From: a virus
Length of the DNA stretch: 28,501 nucleotides
Virus record (IMG/VR): IMGVR_UViG_3300047491_001112
Coordinates: 1-28,501 of that record
Direction: 5' to 3' (one strand)
The notes under the pieces were generated by a model. That model was not told the origin of the DNA. It did not search any database and saw only the letters and a list, made by a program, of their open reading frames with translations. Below, in pieces: positions 525 to 25,781 of the stretch. The translations under genes were made by a program, and so were the position numbers. Position 1 is the stretch's first letter. Each line of letters opens with the position of its first letter.

Positions 525-569
525 TACCCTGTGAGGTAGGATCTTGGTCACCCTTACCCCCACAGGGTA
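525..569 (-). promoter_or_regulatory. leader hairpin hiding the ribosome binding site of the terminase-like gene
   Basis: On the minus strand TACCCTGTG (569-561) pairs perfectly with CACAGGGTA (533-525), with 27 bases between. The second arm contains the only plausible Shine-Dalgarno of the gene starting at 519, and TTTTT follows it directly before the ATG. The structure could mask the ribosome binding site or act as an intrinsic attenuator. Only the pairing is seen; the role is inferred. Confidence 0.4.
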
Positions 570-573
570 GCCG

Positions 574-590
574 TAATGTGGGATTAAATC
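574..590 (-). repeat. intergenic 17-bp element, copy 1
   Basis: Minus-strand GATTTAATCCCACATTA, one mismatch from the consensus GATTTAWTCCCACGTTA. It lies between the stop codon of the 83-residue gene (601) and the terminase-like start (519), in the direction of transcription. Confidence 0.7.
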
Positions 591-2678: not shown

Positions 2679-2706
2679 ATCATATGCCCACCAATATCTT
2701 TGTCAA
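2679..2706 (-). promoter_or_regulatory. near-consensus sigma70-type promoter for the DUF932 gene
   Basis: Minus-strand TTGACA, 16-base spacer, TATGAT: a perfect -35 and a five-of-six -10. It is the best promoter match in the window. It points leftward to the start at 2633, leaving a 5' leader of roughly 40 bases. Confidence 0.85.
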
Positions 2707-3940: not shown

Positions 3941-4609
3941 TCAAGTGGTGGCGTAATACCCATTTGCCGCGACGAGACGACCGGCAGCAGTCGCGTTGGC
4001 ACAGTAGATGAGCAACGGACAGTACCGACTCACGTTGCTGTTGTTGTAATTGTAGGGATCCTGCCATTGCTGGATCTTGGATTCCGCCACTCCGCCGACT
4101 TCGTTGCCGAAGCGGGTCGTGTATGCCGTGTAATACGTCGCCAGGGCGACCTGCGGAGTAAAGGCGAAATGCACCGGACGGGCAGGTTCGTAGAACAACC
4201 AGACCCGGGAGGCAGCGGCAGCAGCGACAGCGTTTGTGCCGGTGAGCGTGACCACCTTGGTCGTGGTATTGATGGACGAGATGACATCGTAATCGACAGT
4301 GCCGTCATCCTGTTCCCAGGCAAGCCAATCGGAGGCAGCGAGATTCTCGGCAACACCAGCACTCGTTTTTCCGCTGTCCACGGCAGTCAGCGTGAGCGTG
4401 CTGGCGCCGGCAGCAGCAGCGGATGCCAACGTGGTCGTGGCGATGGGACGCATCACAATCAGTGTGTGTTGCGTGGTGCCGCTGGTATAGATGAGTTCGG
4501 TCAGACGGGTGATGTAATTCCGCTTGCCGGGGATGATCGCCGTAATAGCAGTTCCGGCGGTCTGAGTGGTTGAAGAAATCTGGAAACCACCCTTCATGAT
4601 GCGATCCAT
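3941..4609 (-). CDS. putative virion structural protein (decoration/surface-like)
   Basis: 222 residues from ATG at 4609, preceded by AAAGGG; an upstream in-frame start lacks such a site. The protein is rich in Ala, Thr and Ser. It contains the pattern ASAAAAGASTLTLTAVDS, then AASDWLAWEQDDGTVDYDVISS, then TTTKVVTLTGTNA. This 'SAAAAGATTLTV / aGDwiai..dDGT / TTTVTLT' beta-rich pattern recurs in phage head-decoration and tail structural proteins. No fold-specific catalytic residues are present. The gene is its own transcription unit, bracketed by two strong hairpins, with a sigma70-type promoter overlapping the 17-bp element; that suits an abundant protein. The exact virion role is unknown, and a major structural subunit cannot be excluded. 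Confidence 0.6.
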   Translation of the reverse strand: MDRIMKGGFQISSTTQTAGTAITAIIPGKRNYITRLTELIYTSGTTQHTLIVMRPIATTTLASAAAAGASTLTLTAVDSGKTSAGVAENLAASDWLAWEQDDGTVDYDVISSINTTTKVVTLTGTNAVAAAAASRVWLFYEPARPVHFAFTPQVALATYYTAYTTRFGNEVGGVAESKIQQWQDPYNYNNSNVSRYCPLLIYCANATAAGRLVAANGYYATT

Positions 4610-4700: not shown

Positions 4701-4729
4701 AGTGTAACGTGGGATTAAATCATAGTCAA
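4701..4729 (-). promoter_or_regulatory. sigma70-type promoter overlapping the 17-bp element
   Basis: Minus-strand TTGACT, 17-base spacer, TACACT. The spacer is filled almost entirely by the 17-bp element (4705-4721). It is the only visible promoter between the terminator at 4736-4765 and the gene starting at 4609. Confidence 0.5.
4705..4721 (-). repeat. intergenic 17-bp element, copy 2
   Basis: Minus-strand GATTTAATCCCACGTTA, an exact consensus copy. It lies between the -35 and -10 boxes of a likely promoter, a position typical of operators. Confidence 0.8.
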
Positions 4730-4735
4730 ATAAAC

Positions 4736-4765
4736 GACCCCCTGGACCGTGGATTCCAGGGGGTC
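4736..4765 (-). terminator. intrinsic terminator after the Lys/Ala-rich gene
   Basis: GACCCCCTGGA and TCCAGGGGGTC form a perfect 11-bp stem with an 8-base loop. On the minus strand GTTTATTTG follows. It closes the operon that ends with the gene at 4797. Confidence 0.8.
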
Positions 4766-4796
4766 ACTCCGAACAACCGCAGGCTACGCGGGTTGG

Positions 4797-5141
4797 TTAC
4801 TTCTTGCGGTTACTGCGACTGGTACCAGTAGGTTTGGCACCCTTGGCGCCAGCAGTTCCGGCAGCGGCAGCTTTCTTAGCGGCAGCACGTTTGCGTTTCT
4901 GAGCGCCGGAAAGCTGCTTCTTTGCCGCCGTAGAACGTGCCTGGGAGTTGACGGCTTCCCGTTTTCCCCGACCGGCAGTCTGAGCATTTTTCTTTTTCCG
5001 GCTTTTCGACTTCGCTTTCTTCTTCTGCGAGGAAGTCGGAGCCTTGGGAGCTTTCTTGTTTCCCTTGGCTTGTTTCGGCTTGCTTCGTGCGTCCGGTTTC
5101 AGTTTGGGTTTGGCAGCTTTTGCCGCTTTCTTCTTCGCCAC
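4797..5141 (-). CDS. histone H1-like Lys/Ala-rich basic protein
   Basis: 114 residues from a GTG at 5141, with AGGAG nine bases before it inside the end of the ParB-DUF4417 gene. Composition is almost wholly Lys, Ala, Pro, Ser, Arg and Thr (for example KPKQAKGNKKAPKAP and KKKAKSKSRKKK), with AAAKKAAAAGTAG near the C-terminus. It has no hydrophobic core, so it is probably disordered until it binds DNA or RNA, like histone H1 C-terminal tails and bacterial Hc1/AlgP-like proteins. Its stop is followed by a strong terminator. A DNA-packaging or nucleoid-binding role is inferred from composition; its coding status is supported by start coupling and compact spacing. Confidence 0.65.
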   Translation of the reverse strand: MAKKKAAKAAKPKLKPDARSKPKQAKGNKKAPKAPTSSQKKKAKSKSRKKKNAQTAGRGKREAVNSQARSTAAKKQLSGAQKRKRAAAKKAAAAGTAGAKGAKPTGTSRSNRKK

Positions 5142-5143
5142 GT

Positions 5144-6625
5144 TCAGGACTCCTGTCTGCGGACTTTATTCGCCCGATTGTTGGGTCGGGATACCCCTAT
5201 GGCGGGTAGAGTTTTCGATTCTACCGATTTCCGCTTCTTCTTCCTAATTCCGGTGTAGGACGGCAGGTTCCGGTACTCCGGACCTCGGGGGAGATAACCA
5301 TGGTATTTCCGTTCATGTTCCATCCCTCCGTAGATCACCACCACTTCCGGTTTCAGATATTCCACTGCCAGCGTGACGAATTTCCCGAAGTCCTTGTGGG
5401 CTTTCGGATCCTTCTTATCTAAGGTGCGACATTGCATGGAAATCACCGGACAGGGGACAGGCAGGGTTTCCAGAGTCAGACCTTCGATGATGTTCTGAAT
5501 CGAGGGGATTACCCGGATCCCCAGTTCCTGCCAGTAACGGGCACACCAGCGGGAACGGTAGATGTTCCAGAGGTTGAGGGGGAATGGGTAGTCCAAATAG
5601 GTGGAAAAGTCCGGTGAAATCACTGCCGACCAGTCTTCTTCCAACAGCAGGTTGGAGAAATCGGACGGGTACTCGTAAACGTACTCAAACCGCCAGTCCT
5701 GGGTGTAAAACCCAGTCACCCCTCCGTGGAACATCTCACTACGATCCGCGTAGGGGGGCTTAAACAGGAAACGACGTGCTGAGTGGCAGAATAGCGCGTC
5801 TTCCCTCAAAGTCTCGTCAGAGCGGTCCCAGGTGATTCTGGGGGCATCCTCGGGGCGGGCAAGCATCTCGGGTAAAAGATCCGGAATCTCCCAATCCGTC
5901 GAACCCTGGAAAAAGACCTCATCCTTCAATTCCGGTTTGGAAAACACGGAACTGTCTTCTTCCGAAGGTTGGAACCCCTGCTCCTCATCATCGTTGTCAT
6001 CCTCCTCGGGTTCCTCAGATTCCGGATACTCCCCATCTTCCTCAGACTCAAATTCCTCAGTCTTTTTCTGGGGAGAGAACATGGTTCTCGGGGATTGTCC
6101 CGTTGAAACCTGTTCTGCATACGCTTTCAGTTCTTCGTTGACCTTGGCGAGACGTTTGGAGTCCTTGGTTTTCAGACCCTTGAGAGCAGTCCGGTTGGCA
6201 AGCGTTAGACTCCGTAATGCCTGTTCGTCGGTCTGTGCCATGGCGGTAATAGGGTCCAGGGATGCCAGGATTAGCTTTTCCTGATCCTCGGACCAATTCC
6301 CTACCAAAACCGGCATGAGAGCATCGCCGTCCTTTTCGGCTTCCTGTTTCCGCATGTGACCGTCGATGATGCGACCGGTGCGTTCATTCAACAAAGCAGC
6401 GCCAGCCCATCCTACCTGAGACTTGAGTGCGGAATAGGTCTGACGCTGCCGGTTGGTGTGACTTCGCCAGTTGAGTGGGTTCTCCCGCAGTTCCGAAGGA
6501 CGCACCCAGACCAACCGCAGGGCTTCCGTAGTGCCTTCCGGCATACGGTCCAGCATTGGTAAGCGAGCCTTGGCGCCCTGGGTGCGGGCAACTTCACTAC
6601 GGGAAAGTTTCTTCTTGGTCTTCAT
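5144..6625 (-). CDS. ParB-like N-domain fused to DUF4417
   Basis: 493 residues from ATG at 6625. Residues about 35-130 form a ParB/Srx-like N-terminal domain: VRPSELRENPLNWRSH, then the GRIIDGHMRKQEAE motif at 84-97 in place of the GHRR box, and the NWSEDQEKLIL block. Residues 150-180 are helical and basic. Residues 188-228 form an acidic linker. From about 300 to 440 it reads as DUF4417 (GGVTGFYTQDWRFEYVYEYP, ISPDFSTYLDYPFPLNLWNIYRSR, QELGIRVIPS, PEVVVIYGG). ParB-N domains in phages bind DNA or hydrolyse nucleotides; DUF4417 has no assigned activity. No Shine-Dalgarno precedes the ATG, which overlaps the end of the 17-bp element. An alternative start at 6676 would add 17 residues within the upstream gene. 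Confidence 0.8.
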   Translation of the reverse strand: MKTKKKLSRSEVARTQGAKARLPMLDRMPEGTTEALRLVWVRPSELRENPLNWRSHTNRQRQTYSALKSQVGWAGAALLNERTGRIIDGHMRKQEAEKDGDALMPVLVGNWSEDQEKLILASLDPITAMAQTDEQALRSLTLANRTALKGLKTKDSKRLAKVNEELKAYAEQVSTGQSPRTMFSPQKKTEEFESEEDGEYPESEEPEEDDNDDEEQGFQPSEEDSSVFSKPELKDEVFFQGSTDWEIPDLLPEMLARPEDAPRITWDRSDETLREDALFCHSARRFLFKPPYADRSEMFHGGVTGFYTQDWRFEYVYEYPSDFSNLLLEEDWSAVISPDFSTYLDYPFPLNLWNIYRSRWCARYWQELGIRVIPSIQNIIEGLTLETLPVPCPVISMQCRTLDKKDPKAHKDFGKFVTLAVEYLKPEVVVIYGGMEHERKYHGYLPRGPEYRNLPSYTGIRKKKRKSVESKTLPAIGVSRPNNRANKVRRQES

Positions 6626-6641
6626 AACGTGAGAATAAATC
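6625..6641 (-). repeat. intergenic 17-bp element, copy 3, abutting a start codon
   Basis: Minus-strand GATTTATTCTCACGTTA, one mismatch. Its final TA are the base before, and the first base of, the ATG at 6625-6623, so the element replaces a normal ribosome binding site. Confidence 0.7.
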
Positions 6642-8736: not shown

Positions 8737-11093
8737 ACCGCGTAAACCCGTTTGACGTGTCGTCTGCGGGTACGAATATTCACCGGTTGTTTCGGCACGG
8801 CATCCGCCAGAGGCTGGATGATTTCTGCCTCATTCCACAAACTCCAAATCTCGTCCGAAAGAGTCCACATTTCCGTAGGACGACCCTTGCGGGTGTGTTT
8901 AGACGGGGTTTGAGCCTTGACGACTCCGATGGTCTGCATGTCGGTCAGGCGCCGATGAAGACTGCTGTGCGGGATCTGCAAGCGATGTTCCAGTTCCTTG
9001 GCGGTCATCCCGGCGTAGGGAGTGCTGGCGGTACGGTTTTTTGGACAAGCCCGCTGATGCCTTGCCAGTTCCCGGGTGATTTCCAATTGGAATCCGCAAG
9101 CGGTATCCAGGGCGACTTTTTGCAACAATCGGTAATGGTCGTCGGAAATTTCCTTCTCGTCATCGAGAATCGCCAGTGCCATTCCCAACTTCACCAGTTG
9201 GGTTGCCAAACGGGAACCGATTTCCGGACGGGTACGGTAGAGCAATCCACCGTCCCGTTCACGGGCTATTCCTGTGCGTAACGCGGAAATAATTCGGGCT
9301 AATGCCACCAGTTTCTTCTCCAAATGGTCGGGTAGAATGGGGAGTGTCTTTCCGGATTCCCGGAATCTTTGCTTGGTGTGGTTCATAAACGCGATGGCGG
9401 AATCCGTCAGGTTCCGGGTGCGCTCTTTTTTCTTGTAGAACCCGTGCATGGCGGCACGGATGTGGGACGCTTCGTCGTGGGAATCCCCCAACAGTTCCAC
9501 CTTGAGAAATCGCTCACCCAGGGTGGATCGATTGTCCCGGTGAATCTCGTCGGTGACAGCAAAGACGCAGGAAAAATCCAGTTCCGGATAGTAGCGGACC
9601 TGATTGTTTCCGTAGGGGATGCGAACCACGCCGTCATACACGTCCCGGAGGATGCCGTACAGTTCCTCCTGCACCTGGGTGGGCATGGACAACACAGCGG
9701 TGTAATCCTTCACCACCAATGTCTTGTGATGCAGCAGAGGCAAAAAGGATACGTCTTCACCGGAATCGGTTTTCCAACCGCTGATGAGTGCCTTGGCAGT
9801 CAGCTTGGAAATGGCTTCCACATGCTGATTGCTGCGTCCGAACGCTTCCACGATGGTGGTCTTGCCCGAGCCCGGGGGACCCACGAGAAACATCCAGATG
9901 GGATCACCGGGAATTTCTTCCGAAAAGACTGCTGCCGTGACCAGACGCAAGGCATCCACGAAAGCGGGGTCCACATGCAGATTTTCACGGAAGTCCTGCA
10001 CCACTTCGCTGAATTTGGTACGGATAATATCGGGAATGATCGTCTCGTTGAGACGAGGGAGATTGTCCTCGGGGATCTCCCAGTTCTTCAGGTGTTTCAA
10101 CAGGGACGTTACGGCATAGGTGTACTGCGGAGTAGGAACAGCACGCGCTGCCGTAACGTAATCCCTGATGTCGAATTTAGTATCCGGTCCTGGGATGTCC
10201 AGACCGCAATCCAGAGTCACCGCCTCATCCGGCCACTGTAACCAGCGGATCGAACGGGGCGAAGGGCTGAGAGCAGCAAGCGACTCCGCTGCCTTAACCA
10301 TCCCGTCGTAACCCGGACGGATTGTACGAGCAGGTTTGCTCTTGGTGGCAGGACTGACAATTTTGGGTGGATCTTTGTCGTAGAGCAGAATGATTTCACG
10401 GGCTTGGAACATTTCCTGAAGATTCTTGCAGGACTTGCTGGACAGGAAAGTACATCCTGGCACACCGACGACCGAGAAATTCTCTGGGGAGAACAATTCT
10501 TTGAGACGCTGATCGGCGTCGTCTTTGCATTGCAGGTTCCCTGCGCGGAGCAGGTAGTCCCATGCCATGGCGTCCCATTCACCTTCGCAGACGTAAATAC
10601 GACCGCCAGGACGAATGAGATGACCACGATACAAATGGTTCTTGCAACCTTTCGTGGACAGTAAAGTGCGTGCATTCAGTTCCCCTTCAATAGGATTCCA
10701 AGTGCGTAAATTGGCAAGTTTGCCGTTGACGTTGTGAATCGGAATCAGCCAACGACCCTGCGAAGCGTCCCAGGCGAGGTCATGGCGTTTGAAGACTTTC
10801 CAGGGGATTCCCCGATCCTTGGCAAGTAGTTTGTAGTGGGTTTCTTCGGTCAAGTCTAACCAATACTGATGGTATTTTTCGAGAAATGTGTAAGCGTTGC
10901 CGGAAAGCATGCATGCCTTGCAGTCCCACTGACCTGTTTTGGGGTTGGCGTAGAAATGTAATTCTTTGCCGCAGAACGGACATTCCGCCAGCAGATTCTC
11001 TCCGCTCTTTCCGGAGAAAACGACTCCATGGAATTCGATGGGGTCTAATGGACGTGTAGTTTCGGTTTCCTGATCCTGTTTCTTCCTCGACAT
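8733..11093 (-). CDS. primase-helicase: zinc ribbon, Toprim, AAA+-like ATPase, winged helix
   Basis: 786 residues; ATG at 11093 has AGGAG upstream. Residues 38-61 are a zinc ribbon (Cys38, Cys41, Cys58, Cys61). Residues about 110-245 form a Toprim primase domain (RIYVCEGEWDAMAWDYLL with Glu170; LLYDKDP with Asp239 and Asp241). Residues 401-540 are an ATPase with Walker A GPPGSGKTT (405-413), an unusual Walker B KTLVVKDYT where DE would be expected, a sensor-like FAVTDEIHR, and GERFL with a possible Arg finger. Residues near 705-735 are a winged-helix segment (MTAKELEHRLQIPHSSLHRR). It would prime and unwind DNA at the phage fork and lies next to the DNA polymerase. Family members with KDFT-type Walker B motifs exist in other phages and mobile elements. 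Confidence 0.85.
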   Translation of the reverse strand: MSRKKQDQETETTRPLDPIEFHGVVFSGKSGENLLAECPFCGKELHFYANPKTGQWDCKACMLSGNAYTFLEKYHQYWLDLTEETHYKLLAKDRGIPWKVFKRHDLAWDASQGRWLIPIHNVNGKLANLRTWNPIEGELNARTLLSTKGCKNHLYRGHLIRPGGRIYVCEGEWDAMAWDYLLRAGNLQCKDDADQRLKELFSPENFSVVGVPGCTFLSSKSCKNLQEMFQAREIILLYDKDPPKIVSPATKSKPARTIRPGYDGMVKAAESLAALSPSPRSIRWLQWPDEAVTLDCGLDIPGPDTKFDIRDYVTAARAVPTPQYTYAVTSLLKHLKNWEIPEDNLPRLNETIIPDIIRTKFSEVVQDFRENLHVDPAFVDALRLVTAAVFSEEIPGDPIWMFLVGPPGSGKTTIVEAFGRSNQHVEAISKLTAKALISGWKTDSGEDVSFLPLLHHKTLVVKDYTAVLSMPTQVQEELYGILRDVYDGVVRIPYGNNQVRYYPELDFSCVFAVTDEIHRDNRSTLGERFLKVELLGDSHDEASHIRAAMHGFYKKKERTRNLTDSAIAFMNHTKQRFRESGKTLPILPDHLEKKLVALARIISALRTGIARERDGGLLYRTRPEIGSRLATQLVKLGMALAILDDEKEISDDHYRLLQKVALDTACGFQLEITRELARHQRACPKNRTASTPYAGMTAKELEHRLQIPHSSLHRRLTDMQTIGVVKAQTPSKHTRKGRPTEMWTLSDEIWSLWNEAEIIQPLADAVPKQPVNIRTRRRHVKRVYAV

Positions 11094-11104
11094 GACCCTA
11101 CTCC

Positions 11105-11121
11105 TAACGTGGGATTAAATC
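11105..11121 (-). repeat. intergenic 17-bp element, copy 4
   Basis: Minus-strand GATTTAATCCCACGTTA, an exact copy. It sits between the polymerase stop codon and the AGGAG of the primase-helicase gene; the start codon is 11 bases further on. Confidence 0.8.
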
Positions 11122-11127
11122 CTGGGG

Positions 11128-13086
11128 TTACAGTGTGTGTATCAAACAATTCTTCGGGAGTGGTATTTCGGTTTTATCCGCCCAGTTGGTGGTAGTCACC
11201 GAAGGGGATGCAGGGACCGGAACACCCAGAACCATGGCGGCAGCTTCCATCAGGTATTTCAAACGACGGATGATGGACGCAGCAAGTTTCGGACGAGAAT
11301 AATCCAGATCGAACACCAATTCGTCGTGGACCTGCATGGTGATGTGCGCGTCGTATCCGTGCGATTCCAACCATTCGTGACAGTAAATCATGGCGAGTTT
11401 CGCCATTTCACCGGCTGACCCCTGCACGAAGAAGTTGCAGCATTTCTGACGCCAGCCCTCTTCTCCCGGAGTGATCATCAACCGGTATCCGCCCAGGGTG
11501 GTGACATACCCGTTTTCGGAAACTTCCTGTACCCGTTTTTCAAGGAAAGCGTCAATCTGGGGGAACTGTCTGCGGATCTTGTGGTAGGCACCTTTTTGAT
11601 GGTAGGTGGAATCAGCCGTTTCTTCTTCCGCTCCGTAGATCAAAGCGAAATTTCCGTTCTTCGTCCAACCGTATTCGTCACTTTCCTTGGTAACATCGTC
11701 GCCCCATAACTCACGGGCGATAATCATGTGAACCGATTCACCGCGTTCAAAGGCTTCGATCAGGCGATGATCCTGAGCCGCGTAGGCGAAGATCCGCATT
11801 TCCTGATTGGAGTAGTCCATGGGGACCCAGATCCTGCCGGGAGCGGGTCCAAACACTACCCGCAAGCGGAATTCTTTCACGTCTTCCCCGTCATCACCTT
11901 CGACCGTCACCCCCTTGCTGATGTTTTGAGCATTCGGGTTGGACGAAGAGAAACGGGTGGTGCGGGTACCTACCTGATTGAAATTCGGAAACAACCGGTG
12001 GATGCGGCGGGAAACTTTATCGTCCACCGATTCCACGAGGTTTTGCAAATAGCCGGTAAGATACCGAATGGCGGTGCTGTATTTCCGGCTTTCCAAAAGT
12101 GCCGTGAGGTATTTGTGGGATTGGGATCGGGTGGGACAACGGTCATCCCGCAGGATGGTCAGGGTATTGCGGTCGGTGGAAGGTCCGGTATCCGTCCACG
12201 AAATTTCCGGTAGTCCCAGACAATCGTACAGAAATTCCCGCAGTTGCTTGGTGGAATTGAGATTCATATCCGCGCGTTTGAATTTGCGGTGAATCTTTTC
12301 ACAAATGTGAATTCTCTGATAATACTCCCGTTCGTAGCGTTCCAATTCCTGCACCAGAGCGTGCCGGTTGACGGTGATCCCCCTGGATTCCATGGAGTAC
12401 ACCACCGGCATCAACTGCATCTCTCTCTGATAGACATGCTCCAATTTCTGGACATTCAATTCCTCTTCGTGCATCCGTCGTAACAGCAGCGTCCGTTCCG
12501 CATCACGGATACCGTAAGTGGACAGCAGAGTATGCCATGGATGATCTTTGGGGTAATCTTCCTTCTCGGCTATTTGAGCGGGCATCCATGTGTCCATTTT
12601 GACGAACCCGGAACGGAGTCCCGGGAACATGGGATCACCCTCTTCGGCACGGCGCCAACCCAATTTTTTGGCGATGGCGCGGGCTTGTTTGGTGGCGTTC
12701 AGTAATTCCTGTTCGTCATCGTCAGGGATGTCGAGGTATTTGACGGACAGGTCTTTAAGCCCGTGCGGTTCTGATGAATCCAAGACATGGGAGGAAATGA
12801 GAGTGTCGTGAATCCGGTCGAAATGCTGGGAAAGCTGGATACCGATCTTTTCCAATGCTTTCAAGTCGAATTTAGCGTTGTGGAATACCCATTTACCGTG
12901 GGAATAAATCCAATTACGGATTTCCTTCACATCTTTCGGGTCAACTTGGACGATGCGGGTGAATGGATCCACTTTCCACGACCACCAGCGGATTTCTCCG
13001 AAGTCGTTGACGGTGGATACGAAGTAGGGCATACATCCGTGGACAAAATCCGGTCCGGTGCATTCCGTGTCAATAGCAAGCAACAT
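11128..13086 (-). CDS. family A DNA polymerase with 3'-5' exonuclease
   Basis: 652 residues, compact as in phage PolA enzymes without a 5' nuclease. The 3'-5' exonuclease motifs are complete: Asp6-Thr-Glu8, Asn70/Asp74 in FHNAKFDL, and Tyr191/Asp195 in YGIRDAERT. Polymerase motif A is VPMDYSNQEMR (Asp424). Motif B is WTKNGNFALIYGA (Lys476, Phe480, Tyr484). Motif C is MQVHDELVFD (His587, Asp588, Glu589). The residue aligned with E. coli F762 is Phe. The O-helix Arg normally four residues before the Lys is replaced by Tyr472. AGGAGG precedes the ATG at 13086. A strong terminator hairpin stands just upstream, so readthrough or an unseen promoter is needed. Confidence 0.95.
   Translation of the reverse strand: MLLAIDTECTGPDFVHGCMPYFVSTVNDFGEIRWWSWKVDPFTRIVQVDPKDVKEIRNWIYSHGKWVFHNAKFDLKALEKIGIQLSQHFDRIHDTLISSHVLDSSEPHGLKDLSVKYLDIPDDDEQELLNATKQARAIAKKLGWRRAEEGDPMFPGLRSGFVKMDTWMPAQIAEKEDYPKDHPWHTLLSTYGIRDAERTLLLRRMHEEELNVQKLEHVYQREMQLMPVVYSMESRGITVNRHALVQELERYEREYYQRIHICEKIHRKFKRADMNLNSTKQLREFLYDCLGLPEISWTDTGPSTDRNTLTILRDDRCPTRSQSHKYLTALLESRKYSTAIRYLTGYLQNLVESVDDKVSRRIHRLFPNFNQVGTRTTRFSSSNPNAQNISKGVTVEGDDGEDVKEFRLRVVFGPAPGRIWVPMDYSNQEMRIFAYAAQDHRLIEAFERGESVHMIIARELWGDDVTKESDEYGWTKNGNFALIYGAEEETADSTYHQKGAYHKIRRQFPQIDAFLEKRVQEVSENGYVTTLGGYRLMITPGEEGWRQKCCNFFVQGSAGEMAKLAMIYCHEWLESHGYDAHITMQVHDELVFDLDYSRPKLAASIIRRLKYLMEAAAMVLGVPVPASPSVTTTNWADKTEIPLPKNCLIHTL
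12894..12910 (-). repeat. copy of the 17-bp element inside the polymerase gene
   Basis: Minus-strand GATTTATTCCCACGGTA, one mismatch, in the same orientation as the intergenic copies. It encodes Ile-Tyr-Ser-His around residues 60-63, ahead of exonuclease motif II. It may be chance or a functional intragenic site. Confidence 0.5.
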
Positions 13087-13107: not shown

Positions 13108-13142
13108 AAGGCCCGGGAGTGTGGCAGGTCCTCCCGGGCCTT
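13108..13142 (-). terminator. intrinsic terminator between acidic-protein and polymerase genes
   Basis: AAGGCCCGGGAG and CTCCCGGGCCTT form a perfect 12-bp stem with an 11-base loop. On the minus strand TCTCT follows. It would limit transcription from the recombination genes into the polymerase. Confidence 0.75.
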
Positions 13143-13163: not shown

Positions 13164-14132
13164 TCATTCTTCGTAGATGATTTCGATGTCACTCCACGGA
13201 ACGGACTTGTAGTCCCTCTCGTTGGACGGACAACGGAGAGAGACCGTTTTTGCCTTGACGTTGACCGTCGTGACCTGACATTCCAGGGTTTTCTTGCTGC
13301 CCTTGGGTTTGTACATCACGGCGTCGTCCTTCTCAGGGACGGTATCGTCAGCTTCGTCTCCCTCGTCCTCGTCGTCCTCGTCGTCGTCTTCGTCAGATTC
13401 GTCCTCATCGGACTCTTCTTCCGAATCCTCTTCGGATTCTTCTTCCGAATCCTCTTCGGATTCTTCGTCTTCGTCCGGTTCGTCACCATCTTCTTCGTCC
13501 GACTCTTCTTCCTCGGATTCCTCGTCATCTTCTTCGGCGTCATCGTCTCCTTCTTCGTCGGAATCTTCGTCGTCGGTTTCTTCTTCCTCGTCTTCGTCTT
13601 CATCCGCTTCGGCGCCTTCTTCGTCGTCCAGACGCTTGTTGAGGAAGATATTGGCATATTCCTTGGTCCGTTTCACGGACAACTGAACTTCCGGTTTTTC
13701 CTCGCCCAGTTCCGCCATGATTTCGAGGAATTCCTCGTTCAATTCCAGACCCTCGGTGTCGTAACCGAGACGTTGCAGATCGATCATCAGACGTTCGATC
13801 AGTTCTTCCGCCGACACGGATTCGCCGTTTTTGAACTTCTTGTCCGCCAGAGAATGAAAGCGGTCGAAACGGAGGCCCTTCGCCTTGCCGCGACTTCCGA
13901 TCAATGACATGGAAACAAAGGGGTTGTTCTTCTTGTCCTTGCCCAGGGAGACCTGGGTGAGACGGGCGACGACGGTCTGACTTTCCCCGTCTTTCAGACC
14001 GAGCGCCTTGATGATCTTGGCGTTGTCCTGACGCGAAGAGTCCTTCACCTTACGGGCTTTATTCCAGGCGGATTGAAGACGCTTGGAAGCGGCGAGGAAC
14101 TCAGAGTGACCCTTACCTTTGGCCTTTGCCAT
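13164..14132 (-). CDS. putative ssDNA-binding protein with long acidic linker
   Basis: 322 residues from ATG at 14132 (GAAAGG upstream); a start 17 codons earlier would lie in the intergenic leader and lacks support. Residues about 50-170 form a basic/mixed domain with strands (QTVVARLTQVSLGKDKKNNPFVSMSLIGSR) like an OB-type or DUF669-like phage ssDNA-binding module. Residues 169-263 are almost uninterrupted Asp, Glu and Ser, including ESEEDSEE repeats. Residues 270-320 form a small C-terminal beta domain (DAVMYKPKGSKKTLECQVTTVNVKAKTVSLRC...PWSDIEIIY) resembling a Tudor/SH3-like fold. Acidic tails in T4 gp32 and T7 gp2.5 recruit replication partners. The position between Sak4-like and polymerase genes supports an SSB role; the domain assignment is inferred. 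Confidence 0.55.
   Translation of the reverse strand: MAKAKGKGHSEFLAASKRLQSAWNKARKVKDSSRQDNAKIIKALGLKDGESQTVVARLTQVSLGKDKKNNPFVSMSLIGSRGKAKGLRFDRFHSLADKKFKNGESVSAEELIERLMIDLQRLGYDTEGLELNEEFLEIMAELGEEKPEVQLSVKRTKEYANIFLNKRLDDEEGAEADEDEDEEEETDDEDSDEEGDDDAEEDDEESEEEESDEEDGDEPDEDEESEEDSEEESEEDSEEESDEDESDEDDDEDDEDEGDEADDTVPEKDDAVMYKPKGSKKTLECQVTTVNVKAKTVSLRCPSNERDYKSVPWSDIEIIYEE
13413..13462. repeat. tandem 24-bp repeat in the acidic linker
   Basis: Two near-identical 24-bp units (core TCTTCTTCCGAATCCTCTTC) encode the ESEEDSEE repeat of the acidic linker. The surrounding TCTTC/GTCCTC runs are simpler repeats of the same type, so the linker length may vary between related phages. Confidence 0.6.
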
Positions 14133-15147: not shown

Positions 15148-15175
15148 AGTATACGGATGTGTCTATCTAAGTAAA
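15148..15175 (-). promoter_or_regulatory. sigma70-type promoter for the Sak4-like gene
   Basis: Minus-strand TTTACT, 16-base spacer, TATACT. It points to the start at 15106, leaving a short leader with CAGGAG. A TTTCT/AGAAA palindrome lies about 23 bases upstream of the -35 box. Confidence 0.7.
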
Positions 15176-17025: not shown

Positions 17026-17042
17026 TAAGGTGGGAATAAATC
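17026..17042 (-). repeat. intergenic 17-bp element, copy 6
   Basis: Minus-strand GATTTATTCCCACCTTA, one mismatch. It overlaps the TGA stop of the 157-residue gene and ends 14 bases before the next start codon. Confidence 0.7.
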
Positions 17043-17514
17043 ATCCGGTGAAACGGGCATCCTCGATACCGTACTTGCGACACAGTTCCACAATGTCCGC
17101 TTCGTGGAGTTCTTTGTTCCCGGTGCGGCTATCTACGGGATCACCGTGATGGTTGTACCGCAGGGAGATGACGGGAGGGGTTCCCTTGGAATTGAGAAGC
17201 TGTCCGGTGTTGAACAGTAATCTCCACCAGTTGACGCCCTGCCGTCCGGAATCCATGGACGTCAGCAGAGATGGGCGGTTGGAAAATTCCTCGCGGATGT
17301 TCTTTTCCAACATGACGTTGGTCAGCTTTTTTGACTTGGGGAGATTCTCGTTCAATTGGAACAAATTCCAGATGAAGAGGCGGACTCCCAGGGAAGACCG
17401 GCGACCCTTGGACCGACTCATGCTTTTGGTTGGTGGGTCCTCGATGGGAGTGAAGTCCAGAATTTCCTCCAAGGCTTTCATAGTCGTGATCTTGCGGCGT
17501 TTCTTGGTTGTCAT
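17041..17514 (-). CDS. hypothetical basic protein, first gene of the replication operon
   Basis: 157 residues, not recognised. The N-terminus is basic (MTTKKRRKITTMKALEEILD) and a second basic stretch follows (SMSRSKGRRSSLGVRLF). The middle is helical (LFIWNLFQLNENLPKSKKLTNVMLEKNIREEF). A WW-containing segment (GRQGVNWWRLLFNTGQLL) and an acidic C-terminal helix (KELHEADIVELCRKYGIED) complete it. GGAG precedes the ATG at 17514. It is the first gene behind the strong promoter at 17553-17580, upstream of nuclease and recombination genes. It might be a DNA-binding regulator or replication accessory; no HTH is certain. Confidence 0.65.
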   Translation of the reverse strand: MTTKKRRKITTMKALEEILDFTPIEDPPTKSMSRSKGRRSSLGVRLFIWNLFQLNENLPKSKKLTNVMLEKNIREEFSNRPSLLTSMDSGRQGVNWWRLLFNTGQLLNSKGTPPVISLRYNHHGDPVDSRTGNKELHEADIVELCRKYGIEDARFTG

Positions 17515-17552: not shown

Positions 17553-17580
17553 ATTATAGCTGTAGGAAGAAGTGCGTCAA
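17553..17580 (-). promoter_or_regulatory. strong sigma70-type promoter, leftward, for the replication operon
   Basis: Minus-strand TTGACG, 16-base spacer, TATAAT (perfect -10). It starts the leftward operon at 17514. Its -35 box is one arm of a perfect dyad shared with the rightward promoter. Confidence 0.8.
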
Positions 17581-17621: not shown

Positions 17622-17681
17622 AGGCAGACTGATCCAAGTCTCCTGGGGTTCCCGGGCAGGTTAATCCTGTCCGGGTTTTTT
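17622..17681 (+). ncRNA. candidate ~60-nt rightward small RNA
   Basis: This is the predicted transcript from the plus promoter (start near 17622) to the terminator T tract (17676-17681). It can form a first hairpin with stem AGACT/AGTCT (17626-17641 region) and ends in the terminator hairpin. It has no ribosome binding site plus start codon. It runs head-on into the leftward virion operon, and its last bases are antisense to the stop codon of the glycosyltransferase-methyltransferase mRNA. The layout recalls lambda OOP RNA. Existence is inferred from promoter plus terminator, not shown. Confidence 0.5.
17651..17681 (+). terminator. plus-strand intrinsic terminator
   Basis: CCCGGGCAGG and CCTGTCCGGG form a 10-bp stem (one G.T) with a 5-base loop, followed by TTTTTT. 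The T tract is on the plus strand only, so it ends a rightward transcript. The hairpin may also help stop the leftward virion operon. Confidence 0.8.
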
Positions 17682-19341
17682 ATGCGCGGGATGCCCACCA
17701 TTGTCCGAGTTTCCCTGGAAGTTCCGGGTGATGCTGGATTTCAATGGTGGTGAAACCCTGGGCTTCCAAGAGAGATTGCAGTTCTTCCGCCGAATGGTTC
17801 ATTTCAGGTGTATGCCATTCTCCCACGCAATTTTGAACTCTCGACAAATCTTGTCGAAGCAGCACCCATTCCGACCCTTCACAGTCCAATTTCAGGGTGT
17901 GGATTTTCAGACCGCAAAGTCCTATCAGCCACCAGAATGGAATCGTCAGGCAGAACTGGCCTGATGTGTGGAGGTAATTTTCCCCTGTGTGGGTGCCTGG
18001 GGTAATGAAGGAATGTCCCAAGACATCCAAAGCAGCAGCATGAATACGGACAGATCGGTCCCCCCATTCCGCCATGTTCTGACACAGGCATTGGAAATTG
18101 AAATCATCAGGTTCCACGGAGAAGACCCGCATGGCGCCGCGAGTCAAACACTCGCTGGCGAAGCATCCGACATGCCCACCGATGTCTAGAACTACAGAAT
18201 TGCCTGGGAAGCGTTCCGGTAAGCGGTAAGTGTTCAACAGAACATTATCGGTCCAGATACCAATCTCTTGCGGGTTCCGCAACATCTTCCAGGCAGGTCC
18301 AGGGTAACGGGTTTCCCCCCTCCAGGCTTGACGCAGTTCCGATAGGTAGGCATCCACGAGATTTCCATGGACAAAACCCTCGGGGTGTTTGTTATATCCC
18401 AGAAGGTCCCATTTGGTCACCGGTTGGCAACGATGCTGAAAGACGACTTCTCCGGTGAAATCTTTTTGCAGGAAACATCCGCCGTCATTGTTGCCCAACC
18501 ATCCGCAGGAAGGTGGAACAGCATAAGTTGTGTGTGTACGGTTCCAGGCGAGGTAGAAGGTTGACTTGTCTCCGTAAATATACTGGTACCAGAAGTTGGA
18601 ATGGATGTTCATCAGTTTGCAGATTTGCAGCGCAGTCCAAGAACGCTTCTTGTCAATCAGCAACTGACCGGATTCCACCGGAATGTAACCTCCACGAACT
18701 TTAATTTTGTCTCGAAGTTTGTCGTAGAACTCGGCACCCTCTTTAGGGAATGGCAACCCCGCTGCCTTGAATGCCTGGGTGGTAATATCCCACCCTCCGT
18801 CTGAATAGAAATCCGGCCAGAGAATAGTTCCGGCTGCTTCGTATTCCTGTGTATCAAACAGGTAAGTCGGGTCTTTGACGGGAACCTGATCGGAATCGAG
18901 AAAGAGAACTTCCTGCCAAGGACAATGCAAAATGGAATAGACTTTGCATTCCCAACCACCCAAATGCGGTGGTTTTTCTGGAAGAAAGACACTGGCGTCC
19001 ACACAGGAAATGTCTGGCCCAATCCCCTCGATCAGGGATTGCATGTAGGGGTCCATCTCGGATCGGTCCAGAAACCAAACCTGAATCGGGAGTTTGCAAC
19101 CCAGGTGACGCAATAGTTTGCAGAGAACGTATCCACCGGAAAAATAGGTCTGACCACCGGCAATGGTGACGATACCCCGACCGGCATACTTATTTTCGGG
19201 ATATCTTGGAATGTGTGCCAGAGTGTCGGCTATCAGAGTTCGGTGAAAGTCGATTTGATCCTGTAGGTGCTTGTATCGGCGTTGACTGACAGTTTCACGC
19301 TGCTTTGCCAACATCAGTTCTACATCGAGATTTACCGGCAT
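17680..19341 (-). CDS. fused glycosyltransferase and FkbM-family methyltransferase
   Basis: 553 residues. Residues about 50-335 are a GT-A glycosyltransferase of the GT8/MNN1 (GT71)-like kind: GRGIVTIAGGQTYFSGGYVL, LPIQVWFLDRSEM, and WQEVLFLDSDQVPVKDPTYLFD with the metal-binding Asp149-Ser-Asp151. Later conserved-looking pieces are ESGQLLID and the FQHRCQPVTKW region. Residues about 380-545 are an FkbM-type SAM methyltransferase: VVLDIGGHVGCFA (383-395), VFSVEPDDFNFQCL, HAAALD, and LKLDCEGSEWVLL near 483-495. The protein could add and O-methylate a sugar on the virion or the host surface. It ends the virion operon. The ATG at 19341 follows the previous stop by three bases, with only a weak Shine-Dalgarno. 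Confidence 0.8.
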   Translation of the reverse strand: MPVNLDVELMLAKQRETVSQRRYKHLQDQIDFHRTLIADTLAHIPRYPENKYAGRGIVTIAGGQTYFSGGYVLCKLLRHLGCKLPIQVWFLDRSEMDPYMQSLIEGIGPDISCVDASVFLPEKPPHLGGWECKVYSILHCPWQEVLFLDSDQVPVKDPTYLFDTQEYEAAGTILWPDFYSDGGWDITTQAFKAAGLPFPKEGAEFYDKLRDKIKVRGGYIPVESGQLLIDKKRSWTALQICKLMNIHSNFWYQYIYGDKSTFYLAWNRTHTTYAVPPSCGWLGNNDGGCFLQKDFTGEVVFQHRCQPVTKWDLLGYNKHPEGFVHGNLVDAYLSELRQAWRGETRYPGPAWKMLRNPQEIGIWTDNVLLNTYRLPERFPGNSVVLDIGGHVGCFASECLTRGAMRVFSVEPDDFNFQCLCQNMAEWGDRSVRIHAAALDVLGHSFITPGTHTGENYLHTSGQFCLTIPFWWLIGLCGLKIHTLKLDCEGSEWVLLRQDLSRVQNCVGEWHTPEMNHSAEELQSLLEAQGFTTIEIQHHPELPGKLGQWWASRA

Positions 19342-19344
19342 AAA

Positions 19345-19758
19345 TCACTCGGTGGGTAGTGGTCGGGTATTTAATCCCGCATTACGGATGGCTAGGAGAA
19401 TCGCCTGTTCCACTGCCATGCGGAAGATGGGTTTCGCCAGACGGATCAGGTAACCGATCTTGCGGCTATCGGCTTCCATGTAAATCCGGTTGTAGATCCA
19501 TTCCATGTTTTCGCGGCACCATTCAGGACCTTTGAGGTTCATGGTGCAGGCGGTATCGCTGCAACGGCAACCGGTAACTTCCTTCTGTCCGAACCACTTG
19601 AAGATCCGTTTCAGTTCTGTTCCCGGACCGAATTCCGGACAGGGGTTCAACAGGGTGGTCATCGCTTCGTGCGAAGGAGGTGGTGAAGGAGGGATTTTGG
19701 AAGCCAGACGCTGTTGCATCTCTTCCATCATCCGTTGGACATCCATATCGACACTCAT
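19345..19758 (-). CDS. planctomycete-type helical protein with Cys motif
   Basis: 137 residues from ATG at 19758, chosen because GGAGG stands seven bases before it; an ATG two codons upstream is too close. The start overlaps the previous stop in ATGA. After a Met/Gln-rich helix and Pro-rich linker (KIPPSPPPSHE) comes FGPGTELKRIFKWFGQKEVTGCRCSDTACTMN, then GPEWCRENMEWI. I recognise this (GTELK..L...G....GC.C...A..MD..G..WC..N) from many planctomycete proteins, often next to or fused with glycosyltransferases, as here. The Cys residues could bind a metal. Function is unknown; the adjacency suggests a shared role with the glycosyltransferase gene. Confidence 0.65.
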   Translation of the reverse strand: MSVDMDVQRMMEEMQQRLASKIPPSPPPSHEAMTTLLNPCPEFGPGTELKRIFKWFGQKEVTGCRCSDTACTMNLKGPEWCRENMEWIYNRIYMEADSRKIGYLIRLAKPIFRMAVEQAILLAIRNAGLNTRPLPTE

Positions 19759-22536: not shown

Positions 22537-22553
22537 TAACGTGGGATTAAATC
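22537..22553 (-). repeat. intergenic 17-bp element, copy 7
   Basis: Minus-strand GATTTAATCCCACGTTA, an exact copy. Its first bases are part of the portal gene's TGA stop; the next start is 14 bases further on. Confidence 0.8.
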
Positions 22554-25764: not shown

Positions 25765-25781
25765 TAACGTGGGAATAAATC
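25765..25781 (-). repeat. intergenic 17-bp element, copy 8
   Basis: Minus-strand GATTTATTCCCACGTTA, an exact consensus copy. It overlaps the TGA stop of the 685-residue gene and ends next to the TAGGAG of the chaperone-like gene. Confidence 0.8.

Follow-up and report, generated by a model that had tools for sequence, protein, structure and literature searches.

The minus strand of positions 4701-4729 in the 28,501-nucleotide stretch of viral DNA analysed here (the window) very probably carries a genuine sigma70 promoter, as judged by its conservation in a related phage, and the promoter spacer holds one copy of a repeated 17-bp element. We tentatively interpret this element as an operator- or stoperator-like site for a predicted phage DNA-binding protein. 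Read along the minus strand, the compound site consists of TTGACT (4729-4724), the dinucleotide AT, GATTTAATCCCACGT and TACACT (4706-4701), giving a spacer of 17 nt. The last two bases of the element (4721-4705) overlap the -10 box, and the rest of the spacer behind the AT is filled by the element. An earlier note on this DNA had described TTGACT-N17-TACACT with the element lying between the boxes; its coordinates and sequence proved exact, with the qualification of the 2-nt overlap, and the terminator that it placed upstream of the gene was also found (Table 1).

The gene served by this promoter encodes a 222-aa protein for which structure prediction gave a poor model (pLDDT 34). Folding of its 95-nt leader revealed no terminator-like hairpin with a T-run, and a covarying stem considered in the same leader was unsupported by the folds. 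On the other side of the terminator (4767-4734) lies a minus-strand gene for a small Lys/Ala-rich, histone-like basic protein (4797-5141).

Table 1. Coordinates in the window of the compound site, further sigma70 promoters and copies of the 17-bp element.
Feature	Positions	Strand	Remarks
17-bp element GATTTAATCCCACGTTA, promoter-spacer copy	4705..4721	-	exact consensus copy
-35 hexamer TTGACT	4724..4729	-	TTGACA at G004 site
-10 hexamer TACACT, TA shared with element	4701..4706	-	TAAACT at G004 site
Intrinsic terminator of upstream gene	4734..4767	-	-24.0 kcal/mol hairpin, then TTTATTT; 13 nt before element
Gene served, 222-aa protein	3941..4609	-	without database relatives; 60% identity to 224-aa G004 ortholog
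Sigma70 promoter TTGACA-N16-TATGAT of DUF932 gene	2679..2706	-	without element
Sigma70 promoter TTGACG-N16-TATAAT of 157-aa gene	17553..17580	-	without element
Sigma70-like promoter TTTACT-N16-TATACT of Sak4-like gene	15148..15175	-	without element
Element copy, 1 mismatch; hairpin and T-run directly after	574..590	-	
Hairpin ACCCTGTG...CACAGGGT, then ATTTTT	526..568	-	5 nt downstream of 574 copy; fold
Element copy upstream of ParB-like/DUF4417 gene	6625..6641	-	
Weak element copy GAATTATTTCCGCGTTA within primase-helicase gene; G004 copy at same position	9279..9295	-	
Element copy, then GGAG and primase-helicase start	11105..11121	-	
Element copy within DNA polymerase A gene	12894..12910	-	
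Element copy over exonuclease gene stop codon	15241..15257	-	
Element copy over 157-aa gene stop; next gene's start 14 nt on	17026..17042	-	
Element copy over portal gene stop	22537..22553	-	
Element copy over 713-aa gene stop	25765..25781	-	

The window derives from an uncultured tailed phage; its minus strand carries genes for DNA polymerase A, a primase-helicase, a Sak4-like annealing protein, a PD-(D/E)XK exonuclease, a ParB-like/DUF4417 protein and the portal. IMG/VR contig 3300042261_001514 is identical to the window over their overlap and adds 6,971 bp. A second contig from the same sample, 3300042261_001681, encodes terminase and capsid proteins and probably belongs to this phage too: its content is complementary, though there is no overlap. 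The closest fuller relative is the collinear G004 (IMG/VR 3300044490_000059, 57.6 kb, extended by G005), with 78% identity in the terminase and 55% in the primase; G008 (IMG/VR 3300042540_000560, 54.1 kb) is distant, its terminase being 44% identical. The window phage is incomplete and its relatives are probably near complete. No cultured close relative was found, and a terminase search for a host or provirus across 84,980 genomes returned none.

The promoter is judged real on the strength of the orthologous site in G004, and not on window statistics alone. Within the window, matches to 9 of the 12 sigma70 hexamer bases occur at chance frequency (10 found against 7.2 expected, and 7 against 8.0), and when flanks were shuffled 5.9% of the sets yielded such a match at some element copy. 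These figures would suit a coincidence in which the T-run of the terminator supplies TTGACT and the element its own TA. However, upstream of the orthologous 224-aa gene G004 reads TTGACA-CG-GAATTAAATCCACAC-TAAACT, with the same register, 2-nt gap and 17-nt spacer, and again a -10 box that begins with the last TA of the element. The hexamers score 9/12 in the window and 10/12 in G004. Both boxes accompany only one of the 14 copies in the window phage, the one at 4701-4729, and none of the other 19 copies in G004; their joint occurrence by chance at the orthologous copy has a probability of ∼6e-4. We accordingly hold a coincidental match to be highly improbable. The hexamers, their spacing within the 16-18 nt range and their conservation are those of a sigma70 promoter.

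The window phage and G004 share at least five sigma70 promoters, of which only the one at 4701-4729 contains the element. The four element-free promoters precede the DUF932, 157-aa, Sak4-like and post-terminase genes; for the Sak4-like ortholog, a sigma70-like promoter lies upstream in both G004 and G008. The strongest sigma70 promoters of the window, at 2706-2679 and 17580-17553, have no element, which is not expected of a repressor of all early transcription. Since these conserved promoters are able to supply transcription, the remaining element copies need not be promoters themselves.

The element is a non-palindromic, oriented sequence whose information content is confined to 17 bp. Scanning the window with up to three mismatches gave 10 matches against 0.06 expected, nine of them on the gene-sense (minus) strand. 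The known parts of the window phage contain ∼14 copies, all in gene sense and including one weak intragenic copy; one extra match, at 19368, is antisense. Shine-Dalgarno sequences often stand directly 3' of the element, and the base that follows it is mostly C or T in both the window phage and G004. In the window phage, G004 and G008 taken together, terminator-like hairpins directly follow four copies and closely precede two.

In G004 the consensus has shifted jointly in all copies to GAATTATTCCCRCACTA, with ∼20 copies in sense and one in antisense orientation. Seven of the 14 positions have a counterpart in G004 by synteny mapping, and the pair at the ParB-like junction brings the number to about eight; these shared positions persist despite sequence turnover between the two phages. 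The weak primase-helicase copy differs between them by two synonymous changes (GCG TTA in the window phage, GCA CTA in G004), each of which runs toward the consensus of its own phage. Given the joint shift and these consensus-directed synonymous changes, the simplest explanation would be a single shared recogniser acting in trans. Genes of G008 are preceded by an oriented motif, TAATAAATTCCRCATTGCATAGG with TATATA after it (L060-L062; ∼10 sense and 3 antisense copies), and its sequence suggests that it may be homologous to the element as a distant counterpart.

To calibrate placement we used two known systems, the 33 stoperators of Bxb1 and the 17 promoters of T7, alongside 12 copies in the window phage and 20 in G004. 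Downstream, a start codon is reached within 25 nt at 5/12 copies in the window phage, 10/20 in G004, 16/33 in Bxb1 and 4/17 in T7, and an upstream stop codon is overlapped or no more than 12 nt away at 8/12, 10/20, 17/33 and 9/17, respectively. Intragenic copies number 2/12 and 5/20 in the two phages (7/32 together), 3/33 in Bxb1 and 1/17 in T7. Sense orientation was found for 9/10 matches in the window and 20/21 in G004, and in the Bxb1 control 31/33 sites share one orientation. Placement is thus compatible with both classes and fits Bxb1 stoperators slightly better than T7 promoters. Because T7 promoters likewise overlap stop codons, and one of them lies within the helicase gene, the placement is compatible with a promoter role as well.

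Published stoperators are asymmetric, oriented and intergenic, one of them overlaps a promoter, and their consensus varies between phages (PMC9283540, PMC6550527, PMC5712189). The element resembles the Cluster A sites of this kind (L5 gp71, Bxb1 gp69) in being a short asymmetric sequence in tens of copies that is oriented with transcription, sits at short gene junctions and gene ends with stop-codon overlap, covers a sigma70-type promoter with one copy (4701-4729, conserved in G004) and drifts jointly in consensus between relatives. It differs in measuring 17 bp rather than 13 bp, in its unrelated sequence and in having more intragenic copies; moreover, no recognisable repressor or integrase accompanies it here, and the promoter that bears it drives an isolated gene and not an early operon.

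In the reading we favour, 4701-4729 would be a host-type sigma70 promoter of the 222-aa gene whose spacer holds one 17-bp protein-binding site with a direction. A DNA-binding protein encoded by the phage may bind the spacer copy and block RNA polymerase as at an operator, and the same protein at the promoter-less copies at gene ends may slow or stop transcription that began at sigma70 promoters further upstream, as Cluster A stoperators do. The element family, its orientation, its joint consensus shift between relatives and the conserved sigma70 boxes around the spacer copy are read directly from the genomes; we infer the protein, the block of RNA polymerase and the timing of that block. The stoperator-like role is favoured by the four copies directly before and the two just after terminator-like hairpins, and by the ability of sigma70 promoters to feed the units that end at elements. 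Counted against it are the element-free strongest promoters, the several intragenic copies, and the lack of an integrase, HTH_3 repressor or other recognisable regulator in the contigs and relatives. The earlier note had proposed an operator here with the other copies as dispersed roadblocks. This proposal is partly supported and is now the leading model: the promoter is conserved in G004, and orientation, spacing and placement are stoperator-like by comparison with Bxb1, but the strongest promoters lack the element. We do not claim membership in an L5-type stoperator system, since operators at the main early promoters were absent when tested and no repressor was identified. Stoperator control is not known outside mycobacteriophages and other phages of Actinobacteria. 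Were the element stoperator-like, the same mode of control would operate in an uncultured phage lineage unrelated to these, through a recogniser outside the known repressor types; were it promoter-like, it would indicate that transcription is redirected in a novel way. In both cases the related phages, whose elements drift jointly, offer a ready comparative set.

The main alternative, unlikely in our estimate, takes each element as a promoter for phage-modified transcription with RNA starting at or just past its 3' end, made either by the host polymerase together with a phage factor that escaped recognition or by a very diverged phage polymerase. The site at 4701-4729 would then be a dual promoter in which the element coexists with the sigma70 promoter. 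The parallels with T7 phi promoters are considerable: a 17-bp upstream block in one orientation, stop-codon overlap, gene starts 10-17 nt downstream (11-14 nt in some T7 cases) and one copy within the primase-helicase gene. Also in keeping with such a role, a Shine-Dalgarno sequence often comes directly after the element, 7-9 of the 17 bases agree with T7-group promoters, a weak similarity, and the strongest early promoters have no element. In contrast to the T7 group, however, no cognate single-subunit RNA polymerase was found in the incomplete window phage, in G004 with G005 or in G008, and neither a conserved purine start nor G/purine initiation right after the 17-bp block is seen, C or T mostly following instead; the element also coexists with sigma70 boxes. 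The four copies directly before terminator-like hairpins, spread over three phages, further argue against every copy being a promoter. The earlier note had offered as its alternative that the element is itself the promoter and the sigma70 match chance; the chance match is contradicted by the orthologous site, and the promoter role is weakened. The specific version in which an uncultured lineage without recognisable RNA polymerase or sigma factor has its own promoter class, read by a novel polymerase or factor and including one dual promoter, is somewhat less probable still.

Roles at the RNA level or in antitermination have less in their favour. A signal in the transcript near the ribosome-binding site, acting in translation or processing, would accord with the restriction to sense orientation and with the 10-19 nt that separate many copies from a start codon, and has a precedent in the Start-Associated Sequences (SAS) of Cluster K mycobacteriophages (PMC3203893), which are likewise repeated, oriented and near start codons; the related ESAS pair sigma70-type boxes with a repeated motif. 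Yet SAS are 13-bp sites that include the Shine-Dalgarno sequence 3-9 nt before starts and ESAS contain inverted repeats, whereas the element has neither feature, lies upstream of the Shine-Dalgarno sequence and is partly intragenic. Some copies are 54-134 nt from a start, within genes or before terminators, and the one at 4705-4721, being in a promoter spacer, would be absent from a transcript of that promoter, making an RNA-level role improbable. An antiterminator of the lambda Q or AlpA type might instead load at the element, binding between -35 and -10 and then travelling with RNA polymerase. The spacer position is that of the AlpA and Q binding elements (PMC7969949), and the phage's transcription units do contain terminators. 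This likeness is confined to 4701-4729: those elements are described at promoters, but 13 of the 14 copies in the window phage are without promoter boxes, and the leader of the 222-aa gene has no terminator-like hairpin with a T-run. We therefore consider antitermination very improbable. Single-strand nick sites as in phage tf (PMC3517423) were also considered and not preferred, given the association of the element with gene starts and stop codons.

T7-type RNA polymerase (PF00940) was absent from G000, G001, G002, G004, G005 and G008, the window phage being incomplete, with a T7 positive control at E=1e-109, and a six-frame search for RNA polymerase motifs B and C found none. Sigma70 region 2, tyrosine or serine recombinase (integrase or resolvase) and HTH_3, the repressor domain covered, were not found in the incomplete phage contigs or the relatives. 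When 87 proteins left without assignment in the window, G004 and G008 were scanned, the best 25 families included no polymerase, integrase or repressor. The 157-aa gene (17041-17514, minus strand) has its own strong sigma70 promoter, is 55% conserved in G004 and has no database relatives. Cluster A phages have the gene order rep - unknown - Cas4, which the order of 157-aa gene, unknown gene and exonuclease recalls. By this analogy the 157-aa protein is a candidate for the binding protein, possibly an L5-type repressor as its gene order suggests; it has no PDB match and its predicted fold is poor (pLDDT 43).

Several other sequences were noted. Exact matches to the element in the Anaerolineales bacteria HSG25/HSG24 were rejected as a sign of a host sequence: they belong to a dispersed repeat with long conserved flanks, TAGCGTGGG-GATTTATT-CCCACGTTA (L063, L064, L066 and others; at least ∼90 bp), where the matching bases make up one arm of a hairpin, and they give no host clue. 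This is probably a coincidental mobile-type repeat. IMG/VR contig 3300033571_008402 (L013) and the contigs behind L124, L126 and L128, with one or two matches each, were taken as chance. G004 contains ∼7-8 copies of a palindromic repeat, CCGGGAATTTCCCGG / CCGGGAAATTCCCGG (L054-L056; for example at 32371, 32407 and 37998), which has no relation to the 17-bp element and may be a symmetric operator or a structural repeat. The DNA polymerase gene is directly preceded by a strong hairpin with a T-run (13110-13140, minus strand), also in G004 and G008; no promoter is visible after this hairpin, which suggests that polymerase expression may be controlled by read-through. The low-complexity TTC/TCG-rich stretch at 13354-13629 encodes the acidic tail of a minus-strand 339-aa protein. 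Finally, the minus-strand gene at 17680-19341, present in G004 too, encodes a protein whose N-terminal half matches mannosyltransferase (PF11051) and whose C-terminal half matches an FkbM-type methyltransferase.
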